Source: an uncultured Clostridia bacterium (GTDB taxonomy: Bacteria; Bacillota; Clostridia; Christensenellales; Borkfalkiaceae). From it: 40,840 bases of DNA. Position 1 is the stretch's first letter; every line of letters begins with the position of its first letter. A model generated the notes under the pieces. The model saw only the letters and a program-made list of their open reading frames with translations. It was not told the DNA's origin and did not search any database. Location: NCBI GenBank assembly GCA_947587085.1, contig CANPXX010000008.1, positions 1-40,840 on the forward strand, written 5' to 3'. The position numbers and the translations under genes were made by a program. This document shows, piece after piece, positions 4,558 to 25,673 of this stretch.

Positions 4558-5085
4558 ATGGCAAAAGAAAAGAAGGGCTTCTGGAAGGAATTCAAGGAGT
4601 TCATCACGCGCGGCAACGTCCTCGATATGGCTGTCGGCATCATTATCGGCGGCGCGTTCACCGCGATCATCACGGCACTCGTGAACAACATCCTCACGCC
4701 GCTCCTGCAACTCATCCCCGGGATGGGCGACGACGGGTTCGGCGCGTTGCAGGTCGTGTTGAGAGCGGCGACGATCGACGCCGAGACGGGCGCGGAGCTC
4801 GCTCCCGCCGTCATCCTCGACTTCGGCATCGTGATCTCGGCGATCGTGGCGTTCCTGCTCACGGCGTTCGTGCTCTTCCTCATCGTGAGAACGGTGAACA
4901 GAGTGCATGAGAAGGCGGAGGCGATGAAGGCGCAGAGAGAGGCGCAGGCCGCTGCGGCTGCGGCGCCCGCGCCCGAGGAACCCGCCCCCGAGGAGCCCGC
5001 TCCCGCGCCCGCTCCCACCACCGAGGAACTGCTGACGCAGATCCGCGACCTGCTCGCCGCAAAGGACGAGACGAAGAAGGAATGA
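4558..5085 (+). CDS. mscL: Large-conductance mechanosensitive channel
   Basis: An inner-membrane homopentameric channel that opens under high membrane tension during hypo-osmotic shock. The N-terminal amphipathic helix (FWKEFKEFITRGNVLDMAVGII) and TM1 are followed by a periplasmic loop and TM2 (about residues 75-103). The protein has 175 residues, longer than the usual 130-150. The extra length is a cytoplasmic Ala/Pro/Glu-rich linker (repeats of PAPEE) before the C-terminal helix TEELLTQIRDLLAAK, which is the family's bundle helix. GGAGG at 4547-4551 overlaps the malQ stop, giving tight coupling. It is the last gene of the operon and is followed by a terminator. Confidence 0.96.
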   Translation: MAKEKKGFWKEFKEFITRGNVLDMAVGIIIGGAFTAIITALVNNILTPLLQLIPGMGDDGFGALQVVLRAATIDAETGAELAPAVILDFGIVISAIVAFLLTAFVLFLIVRTVNRVHEKAEAMKAQREAQAAAAAAPAPEEPAPEEPAPAPAPTTEELLTQIRDLLAAKDETKKE

Positions 5086-5102
5086 GCTTTCGGGCAAAGA
5101 AA

Positions 5103-5133
5103 GACGGACGGCATGCACCGTCCGCCTTTTTTT
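5103..5133 (+). terminator. Rho-independent terminator after mscL
   Basis: A GC-rich hairpin (CGGACGG / CCGTCCG around loop CATGCA) is followed by seven T residues. It lies 18 nt after the mscL stop and closes the dapF-pyrG-dapL-malQ-mscL unit. Confidence 0.88.
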
Positions 5134-5175
5134 GTGGAATGTGCGTGAAAAACGGGGGCGGCGGGCGAAACATCC

Positions 5176-5204
5176 TTGACTTTGTGCGCGCGATATAGTA
5201 TAAT
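5176..5204 (+). promoter_or_regulatory. Sigma-A type promoter of the first lipoprotein module
   Basis: TTGACT at 5176-5181 and TATAAT at 5199-5204 are separated by exactly 17 nt. The downstream leader holds an imperfect inverted repeat (AGTGTAT at 5214-5220, ATATACT at 5228-5234) that could be an operator; that part is weak. Confidence 0.85.
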
Positions 5205-5261
5205 AAACATAATAGTGTATTTATTCAATATACTATGGGTAGTTATCAAACGGAGACGGCT

Positions 5262-6911
5262 ATGAGAAGAAAACTTGTATTTGCGGCTCTGAGTGCGGCG
5301 CTCGCTCTGGCGCTGTGCGGAGCCGTATGCGCTTGCGGGAGCGAGCCGCAACATCTTGCGCACGCTTACGGCGAATGGACGGTGACGGAGCCGACCTGCA
5401 CGGAGGCGGGTTCGCGCACGCGCGCGTGTACACACGAAGGGTGCACGGCGACGGAGACGCAGGTCCTCCCCGCGCTCGGGCACGATTTCGATTCGGGCAC
5501 GGTGACCGTAGAGGCGACCTGTACGGAGGGGGGGACGCGCACGCGCACCTGCCGCCGTTGCGGGACGACCAAGACGGCGGAGCTCGCCCCGCTCGGACAC
5601 GATTGGGTGGAGGGGAGAACGATCTCCGCCGCGACCTGCACAGAGGCGGGGCGCGCAGAGCACACCTGTTCCCGTTGCGACGTCACGGAGGAGTACGATT
5701 CGGCGGCGCTCGGGCACGATTGGAACGTGAAGCGTCTCTCCAATCCCACCTGCACGGCGGCGGGGAGCGAACAGCGGACGTGCAACCGTTGCACGGAGTC
5801 CGAGACGGTGACCCTCGAAGCGCTCGGGCACAGCTGGAACGCGGGCGAGGTCGTCACGGAGGCGGACTGCACCCATGAGGGGCTGCTGCGCCGTACCTGT
5901 ACGCGCGGCTGCGGCGCGACGGACGAGGTGGTGACCGAAGCGCTCGGGCACGATCTCGAAGAGGACTTCACCATCGATACGCCCGCCACCTTCGAGCACG
6001 CGGGGGAGAAATCCCGCCACTGCGCGCGCGGATGCGGCTTCAAGGCGGAGAGCACGGTCATCCCGCAGCTCAACGACAATACGCCCATCGTCTATGAATT
6101 CCGTCTCCTTCGCAACAACGGGGAGAAACTGAATGCGTCCGCCTCCATCACCGTTTACGAATCGGACGGCGTCACCGTCGCGGCGACGGGCGCGCCCGCC
6201 GATTTTGCGGGCGGCGTGTTCACGGCGGAGCTCCGCCCGCGCACCTATACCGTGCGGGTGACCGACCTGCCCGCGGGCTATTCCGCGGAGGAGAGCTACA
6301 CGGTGGAGGCGCTTTCGCCCGTCTGCCCCGTCTACCTCACGGCGCACCTCCTCGAAGGACAGGCGCCCTCCGGCACGCGGTACCGCGTGGGGTCGGTGAT
6401 GTACGACTTCACCATCCCCGCCTCCGAGACCAATCTCAACAAGGAGATCAAACTCAGCGAGGTCCTCGCGACCAAAAAGATGGTATTTCTCAACTTCTGG
6501 TATACGACGTGCACCTATTGCATTCAGGAATTTCCCTATCTGCAAGCGTCGTACACGGAGAATCGGGCGGACGTCGAGGTGCTCGCGATCGACCCGATCG
6601 ACGCCTCGATGGGGGACATCTGCGCCTTCATGAACAATTTGGGGCTAACCTTCCCCGCGATGAAGGACAGCGCGAAGCTCAGAGAGATGTTCGGCGTGAC
6701 CTCCTATCCCACGAGCTTCGTGATCGACGGGGAGGGCGTGGTGTGCGCCGTCCTCGAAGGCGCGTCCGAAAAGGCGACGTTCGATTATTACTTTGAAAAA
6801 TATACGGCGGAGAGCGGGCGGAACGACATCGCCGCGAGCCTTCGCGACGTCGCGCTCCCCGCTGAGAGCGGGGACAGCGGCAGAAAGACCAATGCGGAGG
6901 TGATACGATGA
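5262..6911 (+). CDS. Lipoprotein with LGHxW Cys repeats and C-terminal thioredoxin-like domain (copy 1)
   Basis: Predicted secreted, lipid-anchored protein of 549 residues; exact function unknown. A signal peptide ends in AVCAC, with Cys25 the likely lipidated residue. Residues about 30-270 are five repeats of about 40 residues with the pattern TCTEAG...TCxxC...ALGHDW, plus a degenerate sixth. Each repeat offers three Cys and one His. A beta-rich linker domain (about 275-380) follows, then a TlpA/AhpC-like thioredoxin fold with FLNFWYTTCTYC (Cys417 and Cys420) and the cis-Pro motif TSYPTSF. I chose the ATG at 5262 because GGAG at 5252-5255 fits it; an in-frame ATG at 5235 has no such site and would precede the signal peptide with polar residues. 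The stop overlaps the next gene (ATGA), so both are made together. Paralogue of 18458-20122. Confidence 0.85.
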   Translation: MRRKLVFAALSAALALALCGAVCACGSEPQHLAHAYGEWTVTEPTCTEAGSRTRACTHEGCTATETQVLPALGHDFDSGTVTVEATCTEGGTRTRTCRRCGTTKTAELAPLGHDWVEGRTISAATCTEAGRAEHTCSRCDVTEEYDSAALGHDWNVKRLSNPTCTAAGSEQRTCNRCTESETVTLEALGHSWNAGEVVTEADCTHEGLLRRTCTRGCGATDEVVTEALGHDLEEDFTIDTPATFEHAGEKSRHCARGCGFKAESTVIPQLNDNTPIVYEFRLLRNNGEKLNASASITVYESDGVTVAATGAPADFAGGVFTAELRPRTYTVRVTDLPAGYSAEESYTVEALSPVCPVYLTAHLLEGQAPSGTRYRVGSVMYDFTIPASETNLNKEIKLSEVLATKKMVFLNFWYTTCTYCIQEFPYLQASYTENRADVEVLAIDPIDASMGDICAFMNNLGLTFPAMKDSAKLREMFGVTSYPTSFVIDGEGVVCAVLEGASEKATFDYYFEKYTAESGRNDIAASLRDVALPAESGDSGRKTNAEVIR

Positions 6912-9900
6912 AGGGCAAGAGAAAGATCTTGTTCGCGCTCACGGCGCTCCTCGGGTTCATGTTGCTCCTCGCGGCGGCGGCTTGCTCGCCCTCCCGCGTA
7001 AAGCTCTCCTTCGAGACCAACGGCGGCGCGGCGGTCGAGTCCGTCGAGACGACCGCGGGCACCGTCGTCCCGCTCCCCACGCCCGTGCGCGAGGGATACG
7101 TCTTTGACGGCTGGTATCCCGACGTCGATCTCTCGGGCGAGGCATGCGGCGAAACGGTCACCGCGGAAAAAAGTGCGACCTATTACGCCAAGTGGACGGC
7201 GGGGTACCGCCTCACGCTGGACGCCAACGGCGGCACGCTCTCCACGGCGGCGCTCTGGCTGAGGGAGGGGGATTCCCTCCAAGCGGCGGTGGCGGGACTC
7301 ACGCCCGTCAGGGAAGGCGCCGTGTTCGGCGCGTGGTTCCTCGGGGAGGACGTCCTCGCCTCGCAGACGATGCCCGCCTCCGACCTCACGCTCACGGCGA
7401 AATACCGCGTGGATTACCTCGTCGAAGTGTATCTCGCCAACGTGCGGGGGACGGCGTACGTCCGCAGTGACGCCGACGCGTTCTACGGCACGGGCTACAT
7501 CGGGACAGCCGTCGAGGCTACCGCTCCCGTCGTCGCCAACTTCTATCTCAACGAGGAGCCGCAGAGCGGCACGCCCGTTTCCCGTCTCGTCCTCTCGGAG
7601 AAAGAGAGCGAGAACGTGTTCCGCTTCTACTTCGACCGCATGCGCTATGCCGTGTCCTATGCGGCGAACGCGCCAGCGGGCACCATCGCGGAGGGGACCA
7701 TGTCGCCCACCGAGGCGCCCTACGAGGCAAAGACGGCGCTCGCCGCCAACGCCTTCACGGTGGAAGGGTACCGCTTCGCGGGTTGGAGCACGCGCCCCGA
7801 CGGCGACGTCGAGTACACGGCGGAGAGCGAATTCGAGACGTTGCAGAGCGTCACGTTGTACGCCGTCTGGGACAGGGGATATACCGACCGTCTCGGCGGG
7901 ACTGACCTTCTCTTCTTCCCCCGTCTCGCCCCGACCGAGGCGATCCTCAGCCGCGGCGGCGTGGAGTTCAAGGGCGTGCGCGACGGCGACGCCTTCACCT
8001 TCCGCACGGACGCATGGGAGCGCAATGGCAAGGTTTTCGGCTCCACCTTCTGCTATGCGGACGACGCCAACAAGGGCGAATACCGCTACTTCGAAAACAA
8101 CCCCATTGACCCCGACATCGACGACAACGCCCGTCTGCACGAGGACATCGTCCTCACGGTGGACGAGTACATGCAGGCGACCTACCGCAACGGCGGGCAC
8201 AGCTGCGTCGGCTCGGTGGAGTTCGACGGCTTGCGGGGCGATTATTTGTTCCGGAGCGACGACCATTCCTTCCACTTCCTCACCGCTTCCGCGGAGAACA
8301 CCGAGATCGGCAAGGACGTCTTTTACCGCGGCGGGGAGGAGGCGGGCGTCTATATCGACCTCATCATTCTCGACGCCGAGACGGGCGCGGTGCAGTCGGA
8401 CGGATACTTCCTCGTCCTCGACGGGTACGGCAATCTCCAACTCACCACGCCCTCCGAGGCGGACTATTACGGCTACTATTACACCGACGGGACGTACGGC
8501 GATTCGGCGGGCGACGTCTACTACAAGATCAACCTGCTGTTGAACGACGCGGACGGCGCGCTCACGGGCGCGATCGGCTGGCACGAACAGTATCTCTACA
8601 CGAGACCGCTCCGCCCGACGTACGGCGGATACGTCTTTGCGGACGGGTACCGCGGCGACTATGAGGGGACGGACGGCGGAACGCTCACGCTGGACGGCTA
8701 TTCGCAGTTCGCGGACAGTGCCAAGTACACCGCGGCGGACGGCAAGTCCTATCAGGGCAGTTATACGATCGAGGAGCGCGTGCTCGACGGCACCATCCTC
8801 ACCATCTCGCGCGCTGGCACGGCGCTGATCTCGTTGAAGCTGGATCCCGAGGCGCGGAGCGTGGAGCCGTTCACCGACTCCCGCGCGCCGCACACGGAGT
8901 ACCGCCGTCTGACGGACGGCAGTCCCGCCTTCCCGCTCCTCGTGCTGTATGAGACGGACGACGGCATGACCGCCGAGCTCTACCGCGAGGGGAACAATGG
9001 CGTGCCCGACGCAACGGGGACCGTCACGCAGGAGAGGCAGGGGAACGTCCTCTTCTACACCTTCACGGACGGGAAGGGGAACAGCTTGAAGTTCTACACC
9101 ATCTCCCTCGTCAACTATACGACGCAGGAGGCGGTCAACGTGTATTGCGTGCTCGAAGAGAACGGCGAGAAGAAATACGAGACCATCCCCGTGACGGGCG
9201 GCGGCGAGCTGTGGAACACGGGCGCCGCGCTCGGGAGCGGCGGCACCCTCTACTTCACCGCGGACGGGCAGGTGTTCGAGGGCGGGCTCTCCTATGTGCA
9301 GAGCGCCAACTTCGAGATGTCGTATGCGGAATTCCTGTATGCGGACGAACAGGCGGGCGAAGCGGGGACGCTCTATTTCCTCATCGACGCGGGCAGGGCG
9401 ACGCTCATCGGCACGCCCGAGCTCATGCTGTACGGATATATCGAGTACATTCCCGATTCGGGCATCGGCGACTACGAGATGACGCTCTGCATCAACTGTC
9501 TCGGCGATGCGCTGTATTACGACTTTGCCGCGATGCGGACCTACCCCGGGACGTACAAAACGAAGGGCAAGACGACGTTCGGCGAGGACATCTACACCTT
9601 CACGGCGACGGGCACCTATCTCACCTTCGACTTCCTCATCCACACGTTGGAGGAGTACGGGGACGAGTATCTCTTCTATGAAATATACGACAGGAGCGCG
9701 GAGGGGACCTTCCGTTCGGACGCGGGAGAGGTGCTTCTTCTCGACGGCTTCTACCGCGGACGGTACACCGACGCGGCGGGCGCCGAGCACGAGGGGACCT
9801 ATTCGCTCAAAAACGACCTCGAGCTCGCCGTGCGGTTCGAGACGGAGGACGGGGCAGCCATGGTATTCAGCATCACCAAGGGGTTCCTCCGCAACACCTT

Positions 9901-11902
9901 CCGCGCCGTGGATTACGCCTACGGCACCGCATGGGTGCTCACCAACAGCGCATACGAGCCCGTCGGATATCAGCTCGTGTTCGACGGGCAGGGCAACCTC
10001 ACCGCGAACAGGGAGGGCGGCGCGCGCATTTTAGGATACTATGAGATATTGAACGCCGAGAACAACGAATATCTGCTGCATATCGACCTTCCCGGGCTCT
10101 TCGCGGAGGACCTGCTCGTTACCCTCATGGAGAACGAGCTCCTCGGCGCGCACATCTGCGTGCTGTATGACAGGAACGTGAACGGCGTGTTCGTGGACGG
10201 GGATTGGAACATCCTGCGCCTCGACGGGTACGGGTACGGCGATCTCGTGACGGACAGGGAGGAGACGGGCGGCAGCGGGCTCTATACCGTTCTCGACGAG
10301 GAGAAGGGATTCGTGCGGTTCAGCTTGCAGAGCGCGGACGGCGAATCCGACACCGTAGATACCTTCGTGGCGCTCGATTACGAGAAAAAGAGCTTCCGCT
10401 TCCTCGACTATGCCGCATTGGGCGCGGTCTATCTGAGCGCCGATCTTAAGGTGCTCGTGTTCGGAGAGGACGGGACGGGCTACCTCGGCAGTGAGGCGGG
10501 CTTCTACTTCGCGGCGGCGGATAAGACGTATTTCTACCTCGACAGCCCCACGGAAGGCGTGTACGAGTGCGTGGAGATGAACGCGCTGACGGGCGCGGCG
10601 ACCTTCGAATACGGCGGCGTGACCTATTACAAGTGGGATGGGGAGGAGATCGTGCTCGACGGCACGATCGAGCTCTTCGACGAGGAGGGCAACGCGTGGG
10701 CGGAGAAGCCGACCGCGGCGGCGCGCCTCACGTTCACGCCCAACGGCAGGTATAACAACCGCGTGGAGGCGGTGCTCTCCATCGACGGCGAGCAGTACAG
10801 CGGCTTCCGCATCAACTTCTATGTGGGGGATGCGTTCGAGCCGAGCCTCGTCTACAACGGCGTGCAGTACGACATCGTCTCCTGCAACTATATCCCGAAC
10901 GGCGCGCACACGTTCACCGTGCGGGCGGGCGCCAAGACGGTACGCTACCTCGATTATAACTCCCGCTACATCGAACCGGGCGAATATACGAATGTGGCGG
11001 CGCGCGGCGGCTGGATCGAGCGCACCACGATGGGCATCGGACCCGTGGAATTCCGCGAGGCGACCTACAAGGGCTCCTTCTACTACCTGTACGACGCGGC
11101 GACCTTCGCCGAGCCCATCACCTTCGACGGCGAGACGGCGATCGTCATCGGCTGGCGCAGGACGTACGACGAGACGTACGAGATCGTGTTCGACTATGAA
11201 GGAACGCGCTACGCCGTGGACTTCTATTTCTATGAGAGCAACGGCACCATCTATTACCTGCTCCACCAATTCTATACCTATGAGGAGGTGGACGCGGGCG
11301 AATACACCGTCGGCGTGAAGTACTTCCGCTATACCAACCTCTCGGGCACCCCCGGGTACGGCGACGCCGAGGCGTACATGGGCAGGGCGGTGAACGCCAC
11401 CGTGTTCCGCAAGTCCGACCAAAAACCCATGATCGCGTTCGACAACTATACCGCGCTCGGGCTCACGGGGAGAGCGGTGTGGCTCATCGAATGTTCCGAC
11501 GAAAAGGCAGACGGCACCCGCGACGCGGCGGACGGCTTCTTCGTGCAGTTCGAACTCGGCACCGACGGCAAGACGGTGACGGGCGCGACCGTCACCCGCC
11601 ATACCGTCCTCGACGTGCGCCGCACCAACGAATACTATGTGCACCTGTTCCTCGATGAGGCGGGGAACATCGCCCATGTGGCGGCGGCGGGCAAGTATTC
11701 GAACGGCTCCTATCGGTGGATCACCCGCTCGGAGGGCATGACCTACAATGCGGATAAAACGGAATGCACCTTCCAGACCGTCGAAGAGGTGCGCGCGGGC
11801 GGCATCGTGACCGAGATCATCAGAACGGAATACCGCTTTACGTTCACGCGGAGCGTGGAAGGGAACAGCTACACCATGACCGCGACAGAAGAAAGAAAAT
11901 AA
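6908..11902 (+). CDS. Giant B-repeat lipoprotein with LDGYG modules (copy 1)
   Basis: Predicted cell-surface lipoprotein of 1664 residues, no known function. Signal peptide with lipobox AAAC (Cys26). Residues about 30-320 contain three InlB/Listeria-Bacteroides type B repeats (signatures VREGYVFDGWYPD, VREGAVFGAWF, VEGYRFAGWSTRPDG). The rest is a long Tyr/Asp/Gly-rich beta region with six spaced motifs: LDGYGNLQ, LDGYSQF, LDGFYRGRY, FDGQGNLT, LDGYGYGDL, LDGTIEL. No LPXTG sorting signal or C-terminal membrane helix is visible, so the lipid is the only evident anchor. It is translationally coupled to the thioredoxin lipoprotein by an ATGA overlap at 6908-6911. It aligns along its length, in the same motif order, with the product of 20208-25673. 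No clear terminator directly follows. Confidence 0.85.
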   Translation: MKGKRKILFALTALLGFMLLLAAAACSPSRVKLSFETNGGAAVESVETTAGTVVPLPTPVREGYVFDGWYPDVDLSGEACGETVTAEKSATYYAKWTAGYRLTLDANGGTLSTAALWLREGDSLQAAVAGLTPVREGAVFGAWFLGEDVLASQTMPASDLTLTAKYRVDYLVEVYLANVRGTAYVRSDADAFYGTGYIGTAVEATAPVVANFYLNEEPQSGTPVSRLVLSEKESENVFRFYFDRMRYAVSYAANAPAGTIAEGTMSPTEAPYEAKTALAANAFTVEGYRFAGWSTRPDGDVEYTAESEFETLQSVTLYAVWDRGYTDRLGGTDLLFFPRLAPTEAILSRGGVEFKGVRDGDAFTFRTDAWERNGKVFGSTFCYADDANKGEYRYFENNPIDPDIDDNARLHEDIVLTVDEYMQATYRNGGHSCVGSVEFDGLRGDYLFRSDDHSFHFLTASAENTEIGKDVFYRGGEEAGVYIDLIILDAETGAVQSDGYFLVLDGYGNLQLTTPSEADYYGYYYTDGTYGDSAGDVYYKINLLLNDADGALTGAIGWHEQYLYTRPLRPTYGGYVFADGYRGDYEGTDGGTLTLDGYSQFADSAKYTAADGKSYQGSYTIEERVLDGTILTISRAGTALISLKLDPEARSVEPFTDSRAPHTEYRRLTDGSPAFPLLVLYETDDGMTAELYREGNNGVPDATGTVTQERQGNVLFYTFTDGKGNSLKFYTISLVNYTTQEAVNVYCVLEENGEKKYETIPVTGGGELWNTGAALGSGGTLYFTADGQVFEGGLSYVQSANFEMSYAEFLYADEQAGEAGTLYFLIDAGRATLIGTPELMLYGYIEYIPDSGIGDYEMTLCINCLGDALYYDFAAMRTYPGTYKTKGKTTFGEDIYTFTATGTYLTFDFLIHTLEEYGDEYLFYEIYDRSAEGTFRSDAGEVLLLDGFYRGRYTDAAGAEHEGTYSLKNDLELAVRFETEDGAAMVFSITKGFLRNTFRAVDYAYGTAWVLTNSAYEPVGYQLVFDGQGNLTANREGGARILGYYEILNAENNEYLLHIDLPGLFAEDLLVTLMENELLGAHICVLYDRNVNGVFVDGDWNILRLDGYGYGDLVTDREETGGSGLYTVLDEEKGFVRFSLQSADGESDTVDTFVALDYEKKSFRFLDYAALGAVYLSADLKVLVFGEDGTGYLGSEAGFYFAAADKTYFYLDSPTEGVYECVEMNALTGAATFEYGGVTYYKWDGEEIVLDGTIELFDEEGNAWAEKPTAAARLTFTPNGRYNNRVEAVLSIDGEQYSGFRINFYVGDAFEPSLVYNGVQYDIVSCNYIPNGAHTFTVRAGAKTVRYLDYNSRYIEPGEYTNVAARGGWIERTTMGIGPVEFREATYKGSFYYLYDAATFAEPITFDGETAIVIGWRRTYDETYEIVFDYEGTRYAVDFYFYESNGTIYYLLHQFYTYEEVDAGEYTVGVKYFRYTNLSGTPGYGDAEAYMGRAVNATVFRKSDQKPMIAFDNYTALGLTGRAVWLIECSDEKADGTRDAADGFFVQFELGTDGKTVTGATVTRHTVLDVRRTNEYYVHLFLDEAGNIAHVAAAGKYSNGSYRWITRSEGMTYNADKTECTFQTVEEVRAGGIVTEIIRTEYRFTFTRSVEGNSYTMTATEERK

Positions 11903-12011
11903 AAGAGGGTTTCGAGAAATTACGAGCGTTACGGCGAGAATGAAAAAGGGTCACCACTGCTGACACAATTGAGTTGGACAAAAGGGGAGCTTCCTTATTG
12001 TCATGTTGAGC

Positions 12012-12044
12012 CGCGAGCCCACGTCCAGCGGACGTGGGCTCGCG
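12012..12044. repeat. 15-bp inverted repeat (hairpin)
   Basis: Perfect stem of 15 bp (arms 12012-12026 and 12030-12044, loop AGC) just before the first TCTC...GAGATG core. It has the same position and design as the hairpins at 12451-12481 and 12956-12986 but a different arm sequence. Confidence 0.85.
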
Positions 12045-12361
12045 AGTCGAAACATCTCTACAATGTTAAGGTAGAGATGCCTCGACTATGCTACTTCGCG
12101 CTTCGCGCTCGTGCCGCCCTTGGACAATAAAGAATGTGCGGGCGGGGCGGCAGGACAGAGGAGCGAATGGACGGCAGGACAAAAAGGAGAGAACGGGACG
12201 GCAGGACAGAAGCGCGGGGCTTTCTTCCTTATTGTCATTTCGACCGACGCGTAGCGTTCCATTATTATTGTCATTTTGCCCGACGCGTAGCGGCGCACGA
12301 GCCATAGGCGAAGTAGCGGAGGCGAAGCGCTTCCTATTGTCATTTTGAGCGGAGCGCAAGC

Positions 12362-12498
12362 GAAGTCGAAAAATCTCCACAATGTAATAAGGTAGAGATG
12401 TTTACTTCGCGGCGTTGCCGCTCGTGCCGTTGCAAGCAACGGGGCGACACGAGCGCCCGCGTCCATTGGACGCGGGCGCTCGGCTCAACATGACATTA
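12362..12498. repeat. 137-bp direct repeat, copy 1
   Basis: Identical by eye over 137 bp to 12867-13003. It contains the TCTC...GAGATG core, a CCGTTGC-AA-GCAACGG palindrome and a terminal 15-bp hairpin at 12451-12481 (GAGCGCCCGCGTCCA and its complement around one T). Confidence 0.93.
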
Positions 12499-12866
12499 GA
12501 GCGAATGGCGGTATGATAGAAGAGCGGGGCTTTCTTCTTATTGTCATTTTGCCCGACGCGTAGCGGCGCACGAGCCATAGGCGAAGTAGCGGAGCGCAAG
12601 CGAAGTCGAAAAATCTCCACAATGTAATAAGGTAGAGATGCCTCGACTACGCTACTTCGCGCTTCGCGCTCGTGCCGCGCTTTGTTTACAATAGAAGCCT
12701 CGCGCGGGGCAACATGACAAATTGGAGCTACTTCGGCGCAAAGCGCCTCGTGCCGCGCTTGGACAATAAAGAACGTGCGGGCGGGGTGGCACATGACATT
12801 AAAGAGGGCGGCAGGACAGAAGAGCGGGGCTTTCTTCTTATTGTCATTTTGAGCGGAGGCGAAGCC

Positions 12867-13003
12867 GAAGTCGAAAAATCTCCACAATGTAATAAGGTAG
12901 AGATGTTTACTTCGCGGCGTTGCCGCTCGTGCCGTTGCAAGCAACGGGGCGACACGAGCGCCCGCGTCCATTGGACGCGGGCGCTCGGCTCAACATGACA
13001 TTA
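12867..13003. repeat. 137-bp direct repeat, copy 2
   Basis: Second copy of the unit at 12362-12498, 505 bp further on. Its terminal hairpin is at 12956-12986. Perfect identity implies recent duplication or gene-conversion-like homogenisation. Confidence 0.93.
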
Positions 13004-13050
13004 AAGCGAATGGACGGCATGACATTTGAGAATAGAGAGTGGGGGAAGGG

Positions 13051-13088
13051 AAAAAAAAGAACGGTTCGGAAGAACCGTTCTTTTTTTT
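13051..13088. terminator. Bidirectional terminator
   Basis: Symmetric A8-GAACGGTTC-GGAA-GAACCGTTC-T8: a 9-bp hairpin with an A tract on one side and a T tract on the other. It works for transcripts from either strand. It is the likely end of the minus-strand lipoprotein transcript (stop at 13226) and could also stop read-through from 11902. Confidence 0.9.
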
Positions 13089-13097
13089 GTGTTGTGC

Positions 13098-13205
13098 TGA
13101 CCTTGGGGCGTTGCCTCCGCTTGGGGGTCAGTGGCTGACCTTGGGGCGTTGGCGCCGCTTGGGGGTCAGGGGTTGACCTTGGGGCGTTGCCGCCGCTTGG
13201 GGTCA
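13098..13205. repeat. Three tandem repeats of a 38-bp period
   Basis: Units at 13098-13130, 13136-13168 and 13174-13205 share TGACCTTGGGGCGTTG, then a variable middle and CGCTTGGGG(G)TCA. Each unit starts TGACC and ends GGTCA, so it is also a short inverted repeat. The array lies between the minus-strand stop codon and the terminator, that is, in the 3' UTR of that mRNA. Confidence 0.88.
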
Positions 13206-13225
13206 AGGGTGCTTGGTCAGAGGTG

Positions 13226-17848: not shown

Positions 17849-18213
17849 AGTTGCCTCCTTAAAAAATTTTTGCATATTCAAACGGCTTTTCTGCCGTCTT
17901 TGCCGATGGGGCGGGGCGCCGTACGCTGTTAAAGCGAAGGACCCGCGACTTTCTCGCCGAGATGCCGCCGCGTATTTGCATATACGCGCGCATAACCAAT
18001 AGTATTATACCTCTTTTTATTCTTCAAGTTTACAGCATGAACATGAAAAAATCAACGAAATGACCGCGCGGTTTCAAAAGTTTGGAATTTTGATTGTTTG
18101 CATGAATTTTTTAACGAAACTTTCATAAAATAGCGCAGAAAATCACAAGATATCCCATTTTTACACAACTTATTTGCGAATACGGGTGTATGCTTGCGGC
18201 GGTTATACGGTAT

Positions 18214-18228
18214 ATATTCGACGAATAT
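18214..18228. promoter_or_regulatory. Palindrome ATATTCG-A-CGAATAT, possible operator
   Basis: Perfect 7-1-7 palindrome in the divergent intergenic region, about 140 bp upstream of the plus-strand promoter. The regulator is unknown. Confidence 0.35.
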
Positions 18229-18364
18229 TCACGGTGCGGCGGAGGGGCGTCCGCGCGGGAGAAGGGGGATTCGGCACGGCGGAAGGGGAATTTCGCCCTC
18301 GCGCGCACCATTAAGAAATCTATGTGAAAATCTATGAAAATTCTCATCGGGCGGTGAGATTTCC

Positions 18365-18393
18365 TTGACATCGCGCGCCGCGTCGCGTATAAT
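18365..18393 (+). promoter_or_regulatory. Full-consensus sigma-A promoter of the second lipoprotein module
   Basis: TTGACA at 18365-18370, a 17-nt spacer, and TATAAT at 18388-18393. Both hexamers are perfect. The start codon of the next gene is 65 nt downstream of the -10. Confidence 0.93.
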
Positions 18394-18457
18394 GGAGCAG
18401 GATTTATACATACGCAATATTTCGCGCCGCCCCGCGCGGCGCCGCAAAGGAGTCAAT

Positions 18458-20122
18458 ATGAAGTTCAAAGTCCGCATCCTGCTCGCTTTGGCATCGGTCG
18501 CTTGCTTCGCCCTCGTCGGCGGCGTTTGCGCCTGTGCGCCCAAGGAGTCTCCCTCCGAGCACACCGAGCACAGCTACGGTGCGTGGGCGGTCACCCGCGA
18601 GGCGACCTGCACCGAGGCGGGCGAGCGTTCCCGCAAGTGCACCGAATGCGACGACACGCAGACGGAGCCCATCCCCGCGCTCGGGCATGTGTTCGGCACG
18701 GGGAAGGTCACCAAGGCGGCGACCTGCACCGAGGAGGGCGAGCGCACCTATACCTGTTCGCGCTGTGAAACGACGACGACGGAGGCGCTCCCCGTCATCG
18801 ACCACGACTGGATGCGCGTCGGCAGCTATGTGAAGGAGCCCACCTGCACCGAAGCGGGCGAGGGAACGCAGAAGTGTTCCATCTGCGGAACGGAGCGTTC
18901 GGGCGAGCTCCCGCCGCTCGGGCATCTGTTCGGCGACCCGACCGTCTCTCCCGCTCCCACCTGCACCGAGGACGGCAAGCAGGTGCGCAAGTGCACGCGG
19001 TGCGATTTCGAGGAGGTTACCGTTCTTCCCAAGTATGAGCATCGGTGGGTGATCGAGACGAGAAACAGCGAGCCCACCTGCACGGCGGCGGGGAGCGCCG
19101 TCTACCGCTGCGATCTGTGCGGCTCGGAGGAGACGCGGGAGATAGCGGCGCTCGGGCACGACTACGAGAGCTTCTACACCGTGGACGAACAGGCGACCTT
19201 CGACCATGCGGGGAGCAAGTCCTATCACTGCAAAGTGTGCGGAGATAGGTCGGGCACGGTGGAGATTCCCCAGCTCCACGAGGGACAGGCGATCTCGTAT
19301 GACTTCCGCGTGGTGCGCAACAACGGCGACCTCATCAAGAGTTCGTCCTGCATCATCACCGTGAAGGACGGGGAGAACGTCGTCGCCACGAGCGACCGCA
19401 CCACCCTCGTCGATGGCGTGTTCACCGCGCAACTCCTTCCCAAGGAATATACCGTCACGGTGGAGAACGTGCCGCTCGGCTATACCGCCGCGGCGAGTTA
19501 TACCGTCTCTCCCTTCGACCCCAACTGCAATCTGTGGCTGACGGCGGCGCCCATCTCTTCCTCCGCGCCCGCCTCCCTGCACTACCGCGAGGGGCAGGTG
19601 ATGTACGACTTCACCGTCCCCGCCGCCAATTCGGATACGGGCGTGGCGGTCTCGCTGAGCGAAACGCTCAGAGGGAAGAAGCTCGTCGTGCTCAACTTCT
19701 GGTATGTGGACTGCGGCTGGTGCCAACAGGAATTCCCCGGGCTTCAAAACGCTTATAGGAACTATTCGGACGACGTGGCGATCATCGCCGTGAACGGCTA
19801 TTCGACGGATACGCTCGCGTCCATCCGCTCCTTCAAGGGAGAGTATCGCCTCACCTTCACGATGGTGCGCGACGAGGGCTTGGATCTCGTCTCCAAATTC
19901 AACGTGACCAGCTACCCGACCAGCGTCTTTATCGACGCCGAGGGAGTCATCTGCGAGATCCATACGGGATATACGGAACAAGCCGGCTTCGAGACGCGCT
20001 TCAAGCGGTACATCTCGGATCGGTATTGGGAGAACGGACACGGCGCTTCCGCGGCGTCGGTCGTCTGCACGCAGCCCGAATGCGTGCTCCCCGATAAGCG
20101 GCTTATGGGGGACGTGCTGTAA
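18458..20122 (+). CDS. Lipoprotein with LGHxW Cys repeats and C-terminal thioredoxin-like domain (copy 2)
   Basis: Paralogue of 5262-6911 with the same architecture, 554 residues. The signal peptide ends in GGVCAC (Cys26 the likely lipidated residue). Five repeats of the TCTEAG...CxxC...ALGHxF/W type cover about residues 35-250; two have lost the exact LGH (VIDHDW, KYEHRW) but keep the His. A degenerate sixth repeat (ATFDHAG...CKVCG) follows, then a beta linker and a TlpA-like thioredoxin domain with LNFWYVDCGWC (Cys419, Cys422) and TSYPTSV. AAAGGAG at 18446-18452 lies 5 nt before the chosen ATG. A likely role is extracytoplasmic thiol-disulfide exchange, but the substrate is unknown. It is followed after 85 nt by the giant partner gene. 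Confidence 0.85.
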   Translation: MKFKVRILLALASVACFALVGGVCACAPKESPSEHTEHSYGAWAVTREATCTEAGERSRKCTECDDTQTEPIPALGHVFGTGKVTKAATCTEEGERTYTCSRCETTTTEALPVIDHDWMRVGSYVKEPTCTEAGEGTQKCSICGTERSGELPPLGHLFGDPTVSPAPTCTEDGKQVRKCTRCDFEEVTVLPKYEHRWVIETRNSEPTCTAAGSAVYRCDLCGSEETREIAALGHDYESFYTVDEQATFDHAGSKSYHCKVCGDRSGTVEIPQLHEGQAISYDFRVVRNNGDLIKSSSCIITVKDGENVVATSDRTTLVDGVFTAQLLPKEYTVTVENVPLGYTAAASYTVSPFDPNCNLWLTAAPISSSAPASLHYREGQVMYDFTVPAANSDTGVAVSLSETLRGKKLVVLNFWYVDCGWCQQEFPGLQNAYRNYSDDVAIIAVNGYSTDTLASIRSFKGEYRLTFTMVRDEGLDLVSKFNVTSYPTSVFIDAEGVICEIHTGYTEQAGFETRFKRYISDRYWENGHGASAASVVCTQPECVLPDKRLMGDVL

Positions 20123-20190
20123 CGTCCCGCCTTCGGACGGAACCGTCCATCGGACGACACCGTCCATCGGGCGGTAGCGCCCATCAACAT
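20123..20190 (+). repeat. Run of three small hairpins between paired genes
   Basis: The 85-nt gap holds CGTCC...GGACG, GTCC-ATC-GGAC and GGGCG-GTAG-CGCCC hairpins, with CCGTCCATCGG present twice. No T run follows, so this is probably not a terminator. It may set mRNA stability or the relative expression of the two genes. Confidence 0.5.
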
Positions 20191-20207
20191 TCTCAGGAGG
20201 ACCGATC

Positions 20208-23200
20208 ATGAAAAAATTGCGCAAAAGTTTGCTCGTGATGATCTCCGCGCTCTTCGTGCTCGCGCTCGGGCTCGTGGCGGCGGCATGCAACTCCAACGCA
20301 AAAAAGGTAACGCTCTCGTTCGAGACGAACGGCGGGAGCGCGGCGGAGTCCATCGTTGCCGAACCGGGCACGACGGCGGAGCTCCCCGCGACCGCGCGCG
20401 ATGGGTTCGTGTTCGACGGCTGGTATCTCGCCGCCGACTTCTCGGGCGAAGCGTGCGGCGGGACGGTCACCGTTCCCGAAAAGAACACCACCTATTACGC
20501 GAAGTGGGCGACGGGGTACGAGGTCAAGCTCGAGCTCGACGGCGGCACGACCGCCACGGGGACCACGTCGCTGTGGCTCAAAGAGGGCGCGAACGTCTAT
20601 GACGCCGTGCAGGGCGTCCAGCCGACCAAGGCGGGGCTCACCTTCGGCGCGTGGTTTGTCGGCGACGACGAGCTCTCCCGCACCCTCACGATGCCCGCGG
20701 AGACCGTCACGCTCACCGCGAAATATAAGGTGGGTTACGTCGTGCAGATCTACCTCGCCAATGTGGAGATTGGCTATCAGCGGCACGACGAGTTGGAGGT
20801 CTCGGGCAGCGATTACGTCGGCAAGACGCTCACGGTGGAGGAGCCGCAGATCGCGAATTTCGTGCCCAACGATGCGCCCGAAGGCGCGGCGCCCTCGTTG
20901 ACGCGCACGCTCTCCGAGAATACGAGCTCCAACGTGTTCCGCGTGTATTACGACCGCCAGCACTATCAGCTCAGCTATCTGCCCAATCTTCCCGCCGATG
21001 TGACGGTGACGGGCACGATGGAGGCGCAGGACCTCGTCTATCAGGCGTACGCCTCTGCCGCCGCATGCGGCTTTACGGCGGAGGGATACCGCTTCGCGGG
21101 GTGGAGCACCGCTCCCGACGACGAAGTGGAATACCGCGAGGCGGAGGCGGTGCAGGTCCTTGCCAACACCACGCTGTACGCCGTATGGGATAAGGGCTTG
21201 GAGGACCGCTTCGGCAGTACCGATTACATCTTCTATCCCCGCTTCGAGCCCGACAAAGTCATTCTCTACCGCGGCGGGCATGAGTTCGAAGGGACGGTGG
21301 GGGAGAACGACACCTTCTCCTTCACGACGCCTTCGAAGAGGACCTTCTCGGGCAAGCGCTTCGGCGATACCTTCGTGCTCGAGCGGGAGGACCTCGTGGG
21401 GACGTATACCTATTATTATAACTACTACGATCCCGAACTGAGCACCGAGGAGCGGTTCGACAGCGCGCACACGCTCGAGATCGACGGCTTCCTCGGCGCC
21501 ACGTACACCAAGGACGGCGTGAAGGTGGAGGGCTCGCTCGACTATGACGTCGATCGCGGCGACTATCTCTTCCGCTCCAACGACGGCACAAAGGAATTCT
21601 ATTGCTCCTTCCAGGAACGCGACATGGGGACGGGGCTTCGCAAGATCTTCGCATTGAGCGGGGATGAGTTCGGCTATTACGTCAATTCGTACGGCGAGAC
21701 GCTCGTCCTCGACGGCTACGGCGGCGCGTTCATGATCATCTCGGACGGAACGGGCTACCAGCAGAGCGTGGACGGCTACTATTCCGTCGAGCCCAAGATC
21801 ACCCTCTGGGATCGCTTCGAGACCTATCGCACCTATTGCCTCATGAACGATCAGGCGGGGCTCATCGACGGCAACGTGGGCATCAAGGAATTCAACCTCC
21901 TCATGGTCCCCAACTACTTCAAAGTGCTCGGAGAGGAGGAGTACGAGCAGTACGGCTATTGCTTCTTCTCCGATACGTCGCGCGGGACGTACACCGTCTC
22001 GGACGGCAGTAAATTGGTGCTCGACGGGCACGGCTACTTCGACGACAGCGCGGTCTACACCGACGCGAACGGGAATGTCGTGCAGAAAGGTCCCTATGCG
22101 GTGGAGAGCGGCTATGTGAAGGGCAACATCGTCTCCATCTTAAAACCGAACGCGAACTCCGTGGAATTCACGGCGGCGGACGTCGTCGCGAAGTTCCGCA
22201 TCGACCTCGAAGAGCAGACGTTTGCGGCATATACCGACCCCGAAGAGGTCTCCACCGAGTACTACTTCGTGGAAGGCAGCACCATGCACCCCGTGCTCAT
22301 GGCGATGTACGAGGGCAAGGACGGGTCGTTGCGCGTGGAATTCCATGCGAACGACTCCAACGGACATGCGCAGTATGCGGGCGCGGGGACCGTCGAAAAG
22401 GTGTCCCTGATGGACGGGTACGACTTCACGGCGTACCGCTTCACGCGCACCGCCGTCGTCAGCGGATACGAACAGACGATTCCCGCGACGATGATCTTTA
22501 CGACGGACGTCGTTGAGAGCAACGGCTACTATTACGACGCATACACCATGCTCGAACGGGAGGGCGTGAAGCTCTATAAGACGGTCGAACTCAAGACGGC
22601 GACGGGCAACAACGACGGCGTCGTCTGGGCGAGCACGAGCGTGACGGACGTGGACGGCGTCGGGTCGCTCTACTTCGCCCCCGGCGGCAAGGTCTATCGG
22701 TGCAGTTTCCCCGACGAGAACGATCCCTTCTTCGGCGTGCACTTCGGCGAACTCCGCTATCGTGACGACCTCGGCACGGGGCTCACCCGCCTCTACACGC
22801 TCTCGGATTCCACGACGACGGAGGACGGCTGGGTGGCGACCGTTGCGGCGAGCTATCCGACTTCGATCGAATACTACTATCCCGGGTACAGTGCCCTCTA
22901 CGGCACCTACACCGTGCTCGCGGTGGAGGGCGACCTCGCGCGCGACAGCGAGGGCAGGGCGAAGTTCGACGACTTCGGCGCCGACCGCGATCCCACCGAT
23001 ACGAACTATGTCAACGTGTGGGATACCGACGCCACTTGGAGAAGGACGGACGAGCGGACCCTCCTCGGCGACGTCGTGTATTCGCTCGTCATCGGCGGAC
23101 AGGAAAAGTTCAAGTTCACCTATACCGAGTTCAACTACTTCGGCACGCCCTATCCCATGCTCCTCGTCTATATCGGCAAGGAGGGGGTCTATACCGCGGC

Positions 23201-25673
23201 GGACGGCAGTACGCTCACCCTCGACGGGTACGGCAGGGCACGCTATTCGGGCGGCGCTTCCGCCGACGTTGTGGGCAACTACTACTTCTATGACGTGAGC
23301 GCACAGCGCGGCGGCGACACGAGCGGCGATCCCACCGCGGGCGGCACCGTGTTCGACGGCACGAGTCCGTTCTCGGGCGCGTTGCAGAGCGAGGGTTTCC
23401 GCGACGTCAAGTTCATGTTCGGCGAGGGAGACGACTACAACGAGCGGAGCTTCGAGCTCTCCTCCGAGACCGCCTTCGTCGCTCTCGACTACGCGGTCGG
23501 CGTGTGGGATCTCGTCAATTCCAACTTCCTTCCCTACAACGCGAAGATCACCTTCAACGGGAAGGGGCAGTACACCATCCGAGCCTATTCGGGCGGCTTC
23601 CCGCAGACGGGCTCCTATGAGGTGGTGGACCCCACCTATCCCGAATATGTCCTCTACGGGGTGAATTTCGGCGGTTTGAGGGGCAACTACAACGTCCGCT
23701 TCATGGAATATGCGGAGTATAACAACTTCAACTGCGTGGTCCGCTTCAAGTCCACGGGCGTGTTCATCGACGACGATTTCAACGTGCTCCATATCAACGG
23801 CTTCGGCGCGGGCAACATCTATGGCGAGATCGCGGGGAACATCAACGTCAACTTCATCGACGAGGAGCTCAACTTCGGTTACTTCATCGTCATGGACGAA
23901 ATCTCGAGCTATTACGACCAGCTCTTCCATTTCCGCCTCGACGTGGAGAACGGGACGTTCTCTCTCGTGGAACAGGAGGCGCAGTTCTATGTTGCGGCGG
24001 ATCTCGATCCCTTCCTGCTCCGCGAGGACAACGCGGCATTCGTGGGCTCCCGCAGCGGCGACTATCTCATCGACGGAGACACGCTCTACCTGTATTTGCA
24101 GACCTCGGGCGGCACGTACGAGAGGCAGGAGCTTCCCGCGCCGACGGGCAACGTGTACGCCTATAAGGCGAACGCGGACGCCGCGGAGAAGAAGTATTAC
24201 AAGTGGAACGGCGAAGAGTTCGCCTTCGACGGCACGGTGGATATCCTCGACCACGTCGATAAGGACGGGGACGGCAAAAACGACACCGAGGAAAAACAGA
24301 GACCCGTATTCGGCAAGGACGGCAAGCAGGAAACGGACGAAGAGGGGAACTTGAAGTTCGAGACATACGAAGAGGAGATCTTGGAAAAGACGGCTGAGGT
24401 CGCCGCCACCATCCGCTTCCAGCCTCAGATCCGCGGCTTCTACACCGTTCCCGTCTCCTTCGACATCGGCGGCGTGAACTACAAAGATTTCGTGCTCAAC
24501 GTGTATACGAGCGGAAAGGCGGACCCGAGAATCACATGGGAGAGCATCAACTATCAGCATGTGGAATTCTCCTATGACGAGGCGACGGGCAAGCGCTCCT
24601 TCCACGTCACGGACGCGGGCTACCGCCTCATCGAGCGCACCGACTATCTGCTCCGCTACTTCAACGAGGGCGGCACGGATAAGGCGAACGACGGAATGTA
24701 CCGCAGCCGCGGCGCCGAGTTCGCGGAGACCTACTTCGGCTTCGGCGGCTATCAGCACGATCCGAACCGCAAGCCCACCGCCAAGGTGTACGTCAACTAT
24801 CTGTACGACCCCGTCGCCGGCTCGCCGACCTATCGCACCGAGCCGATCACGGGAGAGGTGGAGCTTGACAGCAAGCGGCTCATCGGGTACGTCAACATCT
24901 CGGGCACATATGTGAACGGCACCCAGCCGCTCTATGAACTCCTCTTCGAGGACGGCGGAGTGCAGTACGCCATCGACTATATCCTTTACGATTACGAGAG
25001 CATCGGCTACTACAACAGCCACTTCTACCTGCACGCCTTCTACCGCTATGAGGAGCTCGACGCGGGCGACGACTACAAGGTCGGCGTGAAGTACATGCAA
25101 TACGTCGGCATGAAGGGCATCGCGGGCTATGAGGACGAAACCTTGCGCGACGTTGCCACGAGCATTACGCTCATCCGCAAGGACGCACAGGGAACGGTCG
25201 TGCCCTCGCTCGAAGTCGGCATGCGCTTCCTCAAAGACACGAACGGGCTGTATCTCATCGAGTACGACTCCTCCAAGACCAACAACGCGGGCACGGCGTA
25301 TCTCGTCACGTTTACGCTCGGCGCCGACGGAAAGGCGGTGACGGCGGCAACGGTCACCGAGAACGATCTGATCGTCGTCGGCTATTCCACGGGCTTCGCG
25401 TTCTATGTGTTCACGCAGGGCAGCGAGACGAATCCCGACGTGGTGGAGATCGTGAGCGCCATCCGCGCGGGGAGACGGTTTGCGAGCGTGCGCGACCTCG
25501 TGGAAAACGCGGACGGCACATGGTCCTTCTACGGCAAGGAGGCGTCGGACAGCGTGGAGCAGAAGTACACCGTGCGCATCGGCGTCGTCCAGATGGAGGG
25601 CGTCACCCGCTTCACGGTGAACGTGACGGTGGAGAGCATTCCGCAGTCCGAGCAATCGCCCGCGGAGGCGTAA
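20208..25673 (+). CDS. Giant B-repeat lipoprotein with LDGYG modules (copy 2)
   Basis: Paralogue of 6908-11902, 1821 residues; predicted surface lipoprotein of unknown function. Lipobox VAAAC (Cys27). Three B repeats at about residues 28-320 (DGFVFDGWYLA, KAGLTFGAWFVG, EGYRFAGWSTAPDD). The Tyr/Gly/Asp-rich body has LDGYGGAF, LDGHGYF, LDGYGRARY, FNGKGQYT, INGFGAGNI and FDGTVDI, in the same order as the six motifs of copy 1. After the sixth motif it has a charged insertion absent from copy 1 that holds an EF-hand-like loop, DKDGDGKNDTEE (residues 1351-1362). CAGGAGG precedes the ATG. The two copies are clearly homologous but diverged, so the duplication is not recent. Confidence 0.86.
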   Translation: MKKLRKSLLVMISALFVLALGLVAAACNSNAKKVTLSFETNGGSAAESIVAEPGTTAELPATARDGFVFDGWYLAADFSGEACGGTVTVPEKNTTYYAKWATGYEVKLELDGGTTATGTTSLWLKEGANVYDAVQGVQPTKAGLTFGAWFVGDDELSRTLTMPAETVTLTAKYKVGYVVQIYLANVEIGYQRHDELEVSGSDYVGKTLTVEEPQIANFVPNDAPEGAAPSLTRTLSENTSSNVFRVYYDRQHYQLSYLPNLPADVTVTGTMEAQDLVYQAYASAAACGFTAEGYRFAGWSTAPDDEVEYREAEAVQVLANTTLYAVWDKGLEDRFGSTDYIFYPRFEPDKVILYRGGHEFEGTVGENDTFSFTTPSKRTFSGKRFGDTFVLEREDLVGTYTYYYNYYDPELSTEERFDSAHTLEIDGFLGATYTKDGVKVEGSLDYDVDRGDYLFRSNDGTKEFYCSFQERDMGTGLRKIFALSGDEFGYYVNSYGETLVLDGYGGAFMIISDGTGYQQSVDGYYSVEPKITLWDRFETYRTYCLMNDQAGLIDGNVGIKEFNLLMVPNYFKVLGEEEYEQYGYCFFSDTSRGTYTVSDGSKLVLDGHGYFDDSAVYTDANGNVVQKGPYAVESGYVKGNIVSILKPNANSVEFTAADVVAKFRIDLEEQTFAAYTDPEEVSTEYYFVEGSTMHPVLMAMYEGKDGSLRVEFHANDSNGHAQYAGAGTVEKVSLMDGYDFTAYRFTRTAVVSGYEQTIPATMIFTTDVVESNGYYYDAYTMLEREGVKLYKTVELKTATGNNDGVVWASTSVTDVDGVGSLYFAPGGKVYRCSFPDENDPFFGVHFGELRYRDDLGTGLTRLYTLSDSTTTEDGWVATVAASYPTSIEYYYPGYSALYGTYTVLAVEGDLARDSEGRAKFDDFGADRDPTDTNYVNVWDTDATWRRTDERTLLGDVVYSLVIGGQEKFKFTYTEFNYFGTPYPMLLVYIGKEGVYTAADGSTLTLDGYGRARYSGGASADVVGNYYFYDVSAQRGGDTSGDPTAGGTVFDGTSPFSGALQSEGFRDVKFMFGEGDDYNERSFELSSETAFVALDYAVGVWDLVNSNFLPYNAKITFNGKGQYTIRAYSGGFPQTGSYEVVDPTYPEYVLYGVNFGGLRGNYNVRFMEYAEYNNFNCVVRFKSTGVFIDDDFNVLHINGFGAGNIYGEIAGNINVNFIDEELNFGYFIVMDEISSYYDQLFHFRLDVENGTFSLVEQEAQFYVAADLDPFLLREDNAAFVGSRSGDYLIDGDTLYLYLQTSGGTYERQELPAPTGNVYAYKANADAAEKKYYKWNGEEFAFDGTVDILDHVDKDGDGKNDTEEKQRPVFGKDGKQETDEEGNLKFETYEEEILEKTAEVAATIRFQPQIRGFYTVPVSFDIGGVNYKDFVLNVYTSGKADPRITWESINYQHVEFSYDEATGKRSFHVTDAGYRLIERTDYLLRYFNEGGTDKANDGMYRSRGAEFAETYFGFGGYQHDPNRKPTAKVYVNYLYDPVAGSPTYRTEPITGEVELDSKRLIGYVNISGTYVNGTQPLYELLFEDGGVQYAIDYILYDYESIGYYNSHFYLHAFYRYEELDAGDDYKVGVKYMQYVGMKGIAGYEDETLRDVATSITLIRKDAQGTVVPSLEVGMRFLKDTNGLYLIEYDSSKTNNAGTAYLVTFTLGADGKAVTAATVTENDLIVVGYSTGFAFYVFTQGSETNPDVVEIVSAIRAGRRFASVRDLVENADGTWSFYGKEASDSVEQKYTVRIGVVQMEGVTRFTVNVTVESIPQSEQSPAEA

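Follow-up and report, generated by a model that had tools for sequence, protein, structure and literature searches.

Paired genes for stalked TlpA-type lipoproteins and giant B-repeat lipoproteins in a Clostridia genus, and their possible link to an iron-sulfur membrane protein

The window, a stretch of 40,840 nucleotides from an uncultured Clostridia bacterium with a genome of 1.38 Mb in 80 contigs (93% complete), carries two gene pairs; in each, the first gene encodes a TlpA/ResA-type lipoprotein with a stalk of Cys repeats and the second a giant B-repeat lipoprotein. The pairing recurs across the genus, and every giant-bearing genome in our sample also has an iron-sulfur (Fe-S) unit, which in this genome lies outside the window and consists of a CD1871A-like membrane protein and a NapH-type protein fused to a TlpA domain. 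We put at about even the chances that each pair is the operon of an extracellular thiol-redox relay fed by this unit.

Two gene pairs in the window

As the preliminary description of this DNA had it, the two pairs agree in gene order, domain layout and strand, both being on the forward strand. The features are as follows:

5176..5204, + strand: sigma-70-type promoter-like site upstream of copy 1, TTGACT-17-TATAAT, 11/12, a consensus match only
5262..6911, + strand: copy 1 TlpA/ResA-type lipoprotein, with signal, Cys-repeat stalk, prealbumin-like stretch and TlpA domain with CTYC
6387..6743, + strand: copy 1 AhpC-TSA/TlpA domain, P0001 residues 385-503 (ORF numbering from 5235), E=4.7e-16
6908..11902, + strand: copy 1 giant lipoprotein, 1664 aa, with an ATGA overlap with the TlpA gene
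7004..7873, + strand: B-repeat region (Flg_new, Flg_new_2) of the copy 1 giant
7895..11467, + strand: all-beta region of the copy 1 giant by predicted structure, residues 330-1520, with LxLDGYG-type motifs
18365..18393, + strand: sigma-70-type promoter-like site upstream of copy 2, TTGACA-17-TATAAT, 12/12, a consensus match only
18458..20122, + strand: copy 2 TlpA/ResA-type lipoprotein, 554 aa from the Met at 18458, with CGWC active site
18608..19240, + strand: Cys-repeat stalk of copy 2, five C-x9-C-x2-C-x12-H units and a CXXC remnant, likely zinc knuckles
19592..19951, + strand: copy 2 AhpC-TSA/TlpA domain, P0003 residues 410-529 (ORF numbering from 18365), E=4.5e-17
20208..25673, + strand: copy 2 giant lipoprotein of 1821 aa, in which a long stretch besides the B-repeats matches no family

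In copy 1 the stop of the TlpA gene and the start of the giant form the ATGA overlap (5262-6911 versus 6908-11902), while the genes of copy 2 are 85 bp apart (18458-20122 versus 20208-25673). A lipobox-like signal was seen by eye at the start of all four translations, so both partners are probably lipoproteins, as had been proposed. The two TlpA lipoproteins (P0001 and P0003) are 42% identical over 540 columns and the two giants (P0002 and P0004) 32% over 1771 columns. The promoter-like sites stop 57 (copy 1) and 64 (copy 2) bases ahead of the TlpA start codons. Scanning 5000-20400 gave 10 sites with at least 9/12 matches, compared with 5.0 (sd 1.8) in shuffles, and none of the sites is immediately before either giant. 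With a promoter-like site before the TlpA gene and none before the giant, each pair looks like a two-gene operon.

Several other features surround the pairs. An MscL gene (4558-5085, + strand) lies directly upstream of copy 1 and is followed by a terminator-like stem at 5105-5124. Short tandem repeats are found after copy 1, at 12143-12212 (26-27-base unit, 2.7 copies) and 13096-13209 (38-base unit, 3.0 copies), and a gene for a lipoprotein-like protein of 1551 aa with Flg_new_2 repeats (13226-17881, minus strand) separates the two pairs. About three copies of a 17-base unit containing an inverted repeat were seen by eye between the genes of copy 2 (20133-20185).

Recurrence and history of the pair

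We called the TlpA family at E≤1e-25 and the giant at a minimum of 600 bits in a sample of 103 genomes of the genus. The TlpA family is present in 61 of these genomes and the giant in 36, with 57 giants in total; copy numbers are lower bounds, as up to four candidates were scored per genome. For 36 of the 57 giants, a TlpA-family match is found upstream on the same strand at no more than 1.2 kb, a distance taken between model matches, and for six more at no more than 12 kb. The remaining 15 have no TlpA-family gene so placed up to 12 kb away; one of them has the reversed order (G273:C3), three start about 1 kb or less from the contig start, and the rest have no evident reason. Gaps between the two genes, measured in the 28 of 35 pairs with a settable start (seven were dropped), range from -38 to 22 bp in 22 cases and from 41 to 526 bp in the others, and four of them are 4-bp overlaps.

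A separate genome scan gave 80 loci, which partly overlap the genus-sample genomes and were kept out of these counts. The giant is directly downstream in six of them (L007, L008, L009, L010, L011 and L014), all from uncultured Clostridia MAGs, and follows 4.5 kb on with other genes between in L013. Two further loci have other large surface-type proteins in the giant's place downstream of the TlpA lipoprotein (L012:4572-10847 and L015:2741-6286, both + strand). These have HELGH/HEMGH motifs and are presumably M60-like, and the L012 protein also has Cys repeats. The pair was found in another family as well, where locus L223 has a giant scoring 1416 bits at 82 bases from a five-repeat TlpA lipoprotein. 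Homologues of the two proteins are therefore often adjacent, and the suggestion that the pair is a conserved functional unit gains from its recurrence across the genus and in this other family. The two-gene pair is likewise not limited to this strain, while two pairs close together on one contig were seen just once besides the window (G084:C4, where about 16 kb separate the pairs and the second has a gap of 5.4 kb).

Although the preliminary description treated the two pairs as a duplicated module, a simple local duplication does not fit the trees of 35 pairs (branch support not considered), in which the two copies do not group as sisters for either gene and each is closer to pairs from other genomes. 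Recent tandem duplication was rejected on the same ground. Distances in the TlpA and giant trees are correlated (r=0.73, against ≤0.22 in 999 permutations), while the deep branches differ between the two trees and copy 1 changes position. Such a correlation is expected for linked genes anyway; what it suggests is that cognate pairs stay together. Several genomes have two to four pairs on different contigs.

The TlpA lipoprotein

AhpC-TSA/Redoxin families in Pfam match both P0001 and P0003, and both proteins have a prealbumin-like stretch between the Cys repeats and the redox domain; a SpaA-like match was obtained for P0001 only, at 18.3 bits and thus under the cut-off of 23.1. The AF2 model of the copy 2 protein is locally confident (mean pLDDT 88.4, pTM 0.59), and its last domain matched ResA, StoA, Etrx1 and Etrx2 in Foldseek, the best match being ResA-type with TMt up to 0.91. 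We aligned 40 of 48 picked family members, leaving out eight shorter or cut ones. The active-site CXXC is present in 40/40, with a variable inner dipeptide (CGPC, CVYC, CPNC, CTYC and others), and proline P487, a candidate cis-proline by sequence, is invariant. By model and alignment, the protein has the predicted ResA-type thioredoxin fold, the CXXC and the conserved proline together, and the idea of a membrane-attached redox protein is supported for this partner. Scores with the ResA subfamily model NF002854 of NCBIfam are 80.4 and 72.6 bits versus a curated cut-off of 170, so the proteins are ResA-like and not ResA.

The giant lipoprotein

Flg_new (PF09479) matches the two giants at 99.7 and 80.4 bits (cut-off 27) in their N-terminal part only, and no Pfam family besides these B-repeats was found in either giant at E≤0.1. 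B-repeats are a typical feature of surface proteins. The AF2 model of residues 330-1520 of the copy 1 giant is almost all-beta (pLDDT 86.7, pTM 0.62), and the LxLDGYG-type motif occurs six times in P0002 and five times in P0004. None of the 50 PDB matches that Foldseek listed is global (TM≤0.13), with local likeness among them to DDB1-type propellers and teneurin, and a sequence search of PDB with the giant returned nothing at E≤0.1; we thus rejected a known fold for this protein.

The preliminary description proposed that the giant is a surface client of the redox protein. In the disulfide sense this is not supported, as the lipobox Cys alone is invariant in the giants and the next best cysteine columns reach 73%, 58% and 42%. 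Without a conserved Cys pair, the giant is unlikely to be a classical disulfide client, a thiol substrate is not evident there and the term redox client is unproven. In a comparison grouped by score alone, giants have only slightly more cysteines than their lower-scoring relatives (5.3 per 1000 aa in 37 giants, 3.9 in 13 relatives, p=0.007). No Msr match was found among the window ORFs scanned, which included the giants.

The same cysteine counts bear on a different role for the TlpA lipoprotein, as a folding helper (disulfide reductase or isomerase, or holdase) for the giant during export, with the Fe-S unit only recycling TlpA. Such a role would agree with the adjacency of the genes with TlpA first, the promoter-like site before TlpA, the near-zero gaps and the agreeing TlpA and giant trees. 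However, the Cys-poor giants with no conserved pair would offer few disulfides to shuffle, and we regard a folding helper as unlikely.

The Cys-repeat stalk

The number of CCCH units in the 40 aligned TlpA lipoproteins was counted with a pattern of about C-x9-C-x2-C-x12-H (spacings allowed 8-11, 2-5 and 10-16), giving five units in 31 proteins, four in seven and three in two. In a search of solved-structure sequences, the Cys repeats weakly match the Thomasclavelia ramosa IgA protease (E=1.2e-5). Excerpts of the report on this enzyme (IgAse) describe its ZBD1 and ZBD2 as predicted zinc sites with 2Cys2His or 3Cys1His and no disulfides (PMC12237041). Because of the CCCH pattern and this weak likeness to the IgAse zinc domains, the repeats look like tandem zinc knuckles that would form a stalk. 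The same two observations disfavour disulfide or redox modules, and they call for caution before the common Cys repeats of gut Clostridia are read as redox modules.

A zinc stalk would also suit a reading in which TlpA lipoprotein and giant are joined in a single surface complex that serves adhesion or glycan or mucin binding. The stalk and the giant would then be structural, and the TlpA domain would shield from oxidants either the cysteines that bind zinc in its own chain or the surface. The B-repeats, matched here by Flg_new and generally of surface habit, would fit such a complex, and so would the presence, in one chain with TlpA, of CCCH repeats that each contribute three thiols (compare the zinc sites in the excerpts of PMC12237041). 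Yet this leaves unexplained why the pairing is with the giant rather than any other surface protein, and we consider the complex improbable, to about the same degree as a folding helper.

An iron-sulfur unit outside the window

Contig C40 of the same genome (G000) encodes a fusion of a NapH/Fer4_5-type 4Fe-4S membrane protein with TlpA (L183:1504-3600, + strand). Directly before it is a CD1871A-like membrane protein (L183:615-1493, + strand) ending in ICTECIGLG, which was recognised by motif alone. Among 36 loci scanned, 29 hold the NapH-TlpA gene, and all 29, this genome's own included, have, a short distance upstream and on the same strand, a gene ending in CXXC-(I/V)-G. The C-terminal domain of this upstream membrane protein (216-289 aa) scores 34.5-40.3 bits with NF040920 (cut-off 32) in 4/4 proteins scanned. 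Two NapH-TlpA fusions were scanned with models: PF12801 and Fer4_7 are over their cut-offs, the NapH models score under theirs, and no FMN-binding match was found. In six genomes (G042, G155, G165, G190, G110 and G245) the order TlpA lipoprotein, giant, CD1871A-like protein and NapH-TlpA is found on one strand; five of these loci have other genes between the TlpA lipoprotein and the giant, some of them on the opposite strand in L190.

The preliminary description had considered the pair by itself, but its distribution follows that of the NapH-type Fe-S/TlpA membrane protein, so a self-standing unit is not what we find. Of the 103 genus genomes, the TlpA family and NapH-TlpA are both present in 59, the TlpA family alone in two (G092 and G230, with no Fe-S unit detected), the Fe-S gene alone in one and neither in 41; all 36 giant-bearing genomes have both. 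In a family sample of 201 genomes, NapH(-TlpA) is present in 57 and the TlpA family, at E≤1e-10, in 60, one of which (G116) proved on reading to be the fusion itself. In an order sample of 297 genomes, the TlpA family is present in 37, 35 of them with the Fe-S family, which occurs in 81 overall with matches that often cover the Fe-S part only; by genus, the Fe-S family in this sample is found in 14/15 versus 28/110. Fisher tests give 3.9e-25 (genus) and 4.9e-7 (by genus, order sample), values that are overstated since the genomes are related. In 20 of the 60 genus genomes that have it, the Fe-S gene has a TlpA-family gene or a giant no more than 15 kb away; in the other 40, including the genome studied here, it is farther off or on another contig. 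Outside the family, TlpA and Fe-S genes are within 15 kb of each other in 13/20 genomes, where some TlpA hits are short and perhaps not stalked lipoproteins.

CcdA/DsbD_TM (PF02683) was also considered as electron donor and rejected, as it was not found in this genome (93% complete) and is present in 1/103 genomes of the genus, with 27.8 bits versus a cut-off of 27.1. The likely electron donor is NapH-TlpA with the CD1871A-like protein.

Other genes near NapH-TlpA may point to further partners. Prealbumin-like lipoprotein-type genes with a V-Q-L-C...C-type motif (e.g. VQLCGGPTGAC) were detected by script in 7/29 NapH-TlpA loci (L185:3786-4190, +; L186:4169-8335, minus; L192:1095-1802, +; L193:15303-15968, minus; L230:7745-10609, minus; L233:6142-6864, minus; L241:4963-7149, minus), and one more was seen by eye in the genome studied here (L183:3713-4480, minus). 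The script also fired in 5/141 other loci; inspected by eye, four of these hits are Cys-repeat proteins and one is an unrelated frame. Judging by their motif, these lipoproteins are a possible thiol client. In addition, 18 genus genomes have a long form of TlpA in a frame of 879-1224 aa (e.g. L184:7764-10874, minus; L185:4225-7017, +; L186:8434-11055, minus); in three long forms whose whole sequence was read, the TlpA domain near the N-terminus leads into a long C-terminal region. None of these genomes has a giant of 600 bits or more, which argues that the giant is not needed for a relay and is one of several partners.

A possible surface thiol-redox relay

Gene order, phyletic coupling, the intact CXXC and the predicted folds are the observations that speak for a relay, and from them we infer the direction of electron flow and the contact between its parts. 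Electrons would leave the cytosol through the CD1871A-like membrane protein and the NapH/Fer4_5-type 4Fe-4S protein with its outward TlpA domain. This domain would reduce the TlpA lipoproteins, held on their putative zinc-knuckle stalk at the outer face of the membrane, at their CXXC. The TlpA lipoproteins would in turn act on the giant of the same operon, so that its few cysteines or a ligand that it holds stay reduced, and probably on other surface lipoproteins too. One cell may operate several paralogous pairs side by side. The least secure step is the role of the giant as substrate, which, like any function of the giant, we infer; the giant may be a structural partner instead. Alternatively, the two genes could simply be neighbours within a cluster of surface lipoproteins that is passed on as a whole, their products having no physical or functional contact. 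This would account for the other lipoprotein-like genes in the same clusters at several loci but is quite improbable given direct adjacency in the same order and strand in 36 diverged cases, mostly with near-zero gaps, and the several genomes that keep at least two copies of the pair on separate contigs.

On the relay reading, this Clostridia genus seems to use a NapH-type Fe-S protein in place of CcdA, with a terminal thioredoxin apparently tied to giant surface lipoproteins without assigned function. A more specific form, which we favour somewhat less than the relay itself and hold a little short of even, is a CcdA-free surface thioredoxin system in which CD1871A/NapH-TlpA would power parallel stalked TlpA lipoproteins, each with its cognate giant, giving a gut bacterium subtype-specific redox control over its giant surface proteins. 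The relay offers a testable role for three uncharacterised families, CD1871A, the NapH-TlpA fusion and the giant.

Comparison with known systems

Among the open-licence PMC papers listed by our searches, none has a title or abstract start that describes NapH-TlpA together with surface TlpA lipoproteins, and CD1871A does not occur in the 10 papers listed of 13 from one search. A possible parallel to the mau cluster (MauD/MauN) was dropped when the literature search gave no support. The CD1871A family (NCBIfam NF040920), whose model name states no function, is shared with the C-terminal domain of the membrane protein upstream of NapH-TlpA, over cut-off in the four proteins scanned.

The repeated Cys/His quartets of the stalk are like those of IgAse ZBD1/ZBD2 (PDB 9qa6; excerpts of PMC12237041), with weak sequence likeness; those domains are part of a sortase-anchored peptidase, whereas here the repeats form the stalk of a lipoprotein thioredoxin. 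With the Bacillus thiol-disulfide oxidoreductases ResA, StoA and TlpA, the TlpA lipoproteins share the fold and the CXXC domain, but they differ in the Cys-repeat stalk, the variable CXXC dipeptides and the giant lipoprotein partner.

NapH-like systems, as excerpts of PMC8238504 present them, have a multi-helix PF12801 Fe-S membrane protein that passes electrons outward to varied outer partners. The unit described here is similar in its PF12801 Fe-S membrane protein and modular outer partners, with a TlpA domain, in the two fusions scanned, in the place of the FMN-binding domain that serves as outer carrier there (excerpts of PMC8238504).

The closest parallel is in Streptococcus pneumoniae, where excerpts of PMC3914529 describe surface thioredoxin pathways fed by CcdA (CcdA-Etrx-SpMsrAB2). 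Etrx1 and Etrx2, too, are thioredoxin-family lipoproteins at the cell surface that work with a donor in the membrane and with a surface partner (same excerpts), and their structures are among the Foldseek matches listed for the TlpA domain. Unlike the Etrx pathway, the genome studied here has a NapH-type Fe-S/TlpA fusion as donor candidate where CcdA/DsbD_TM was not found, a zinc-knuckle-like stalk, and as neighbour a giant beta-rich lipoprotein without Msr match. By this analogy, the likeliest description of the relay is one that would resemble CcdA-Etrx-SpMsrAB2 (excerpts of PMC3914529) with the donor replaced by a NapH-like Fe-S unit (excerpts of PMC8238504).
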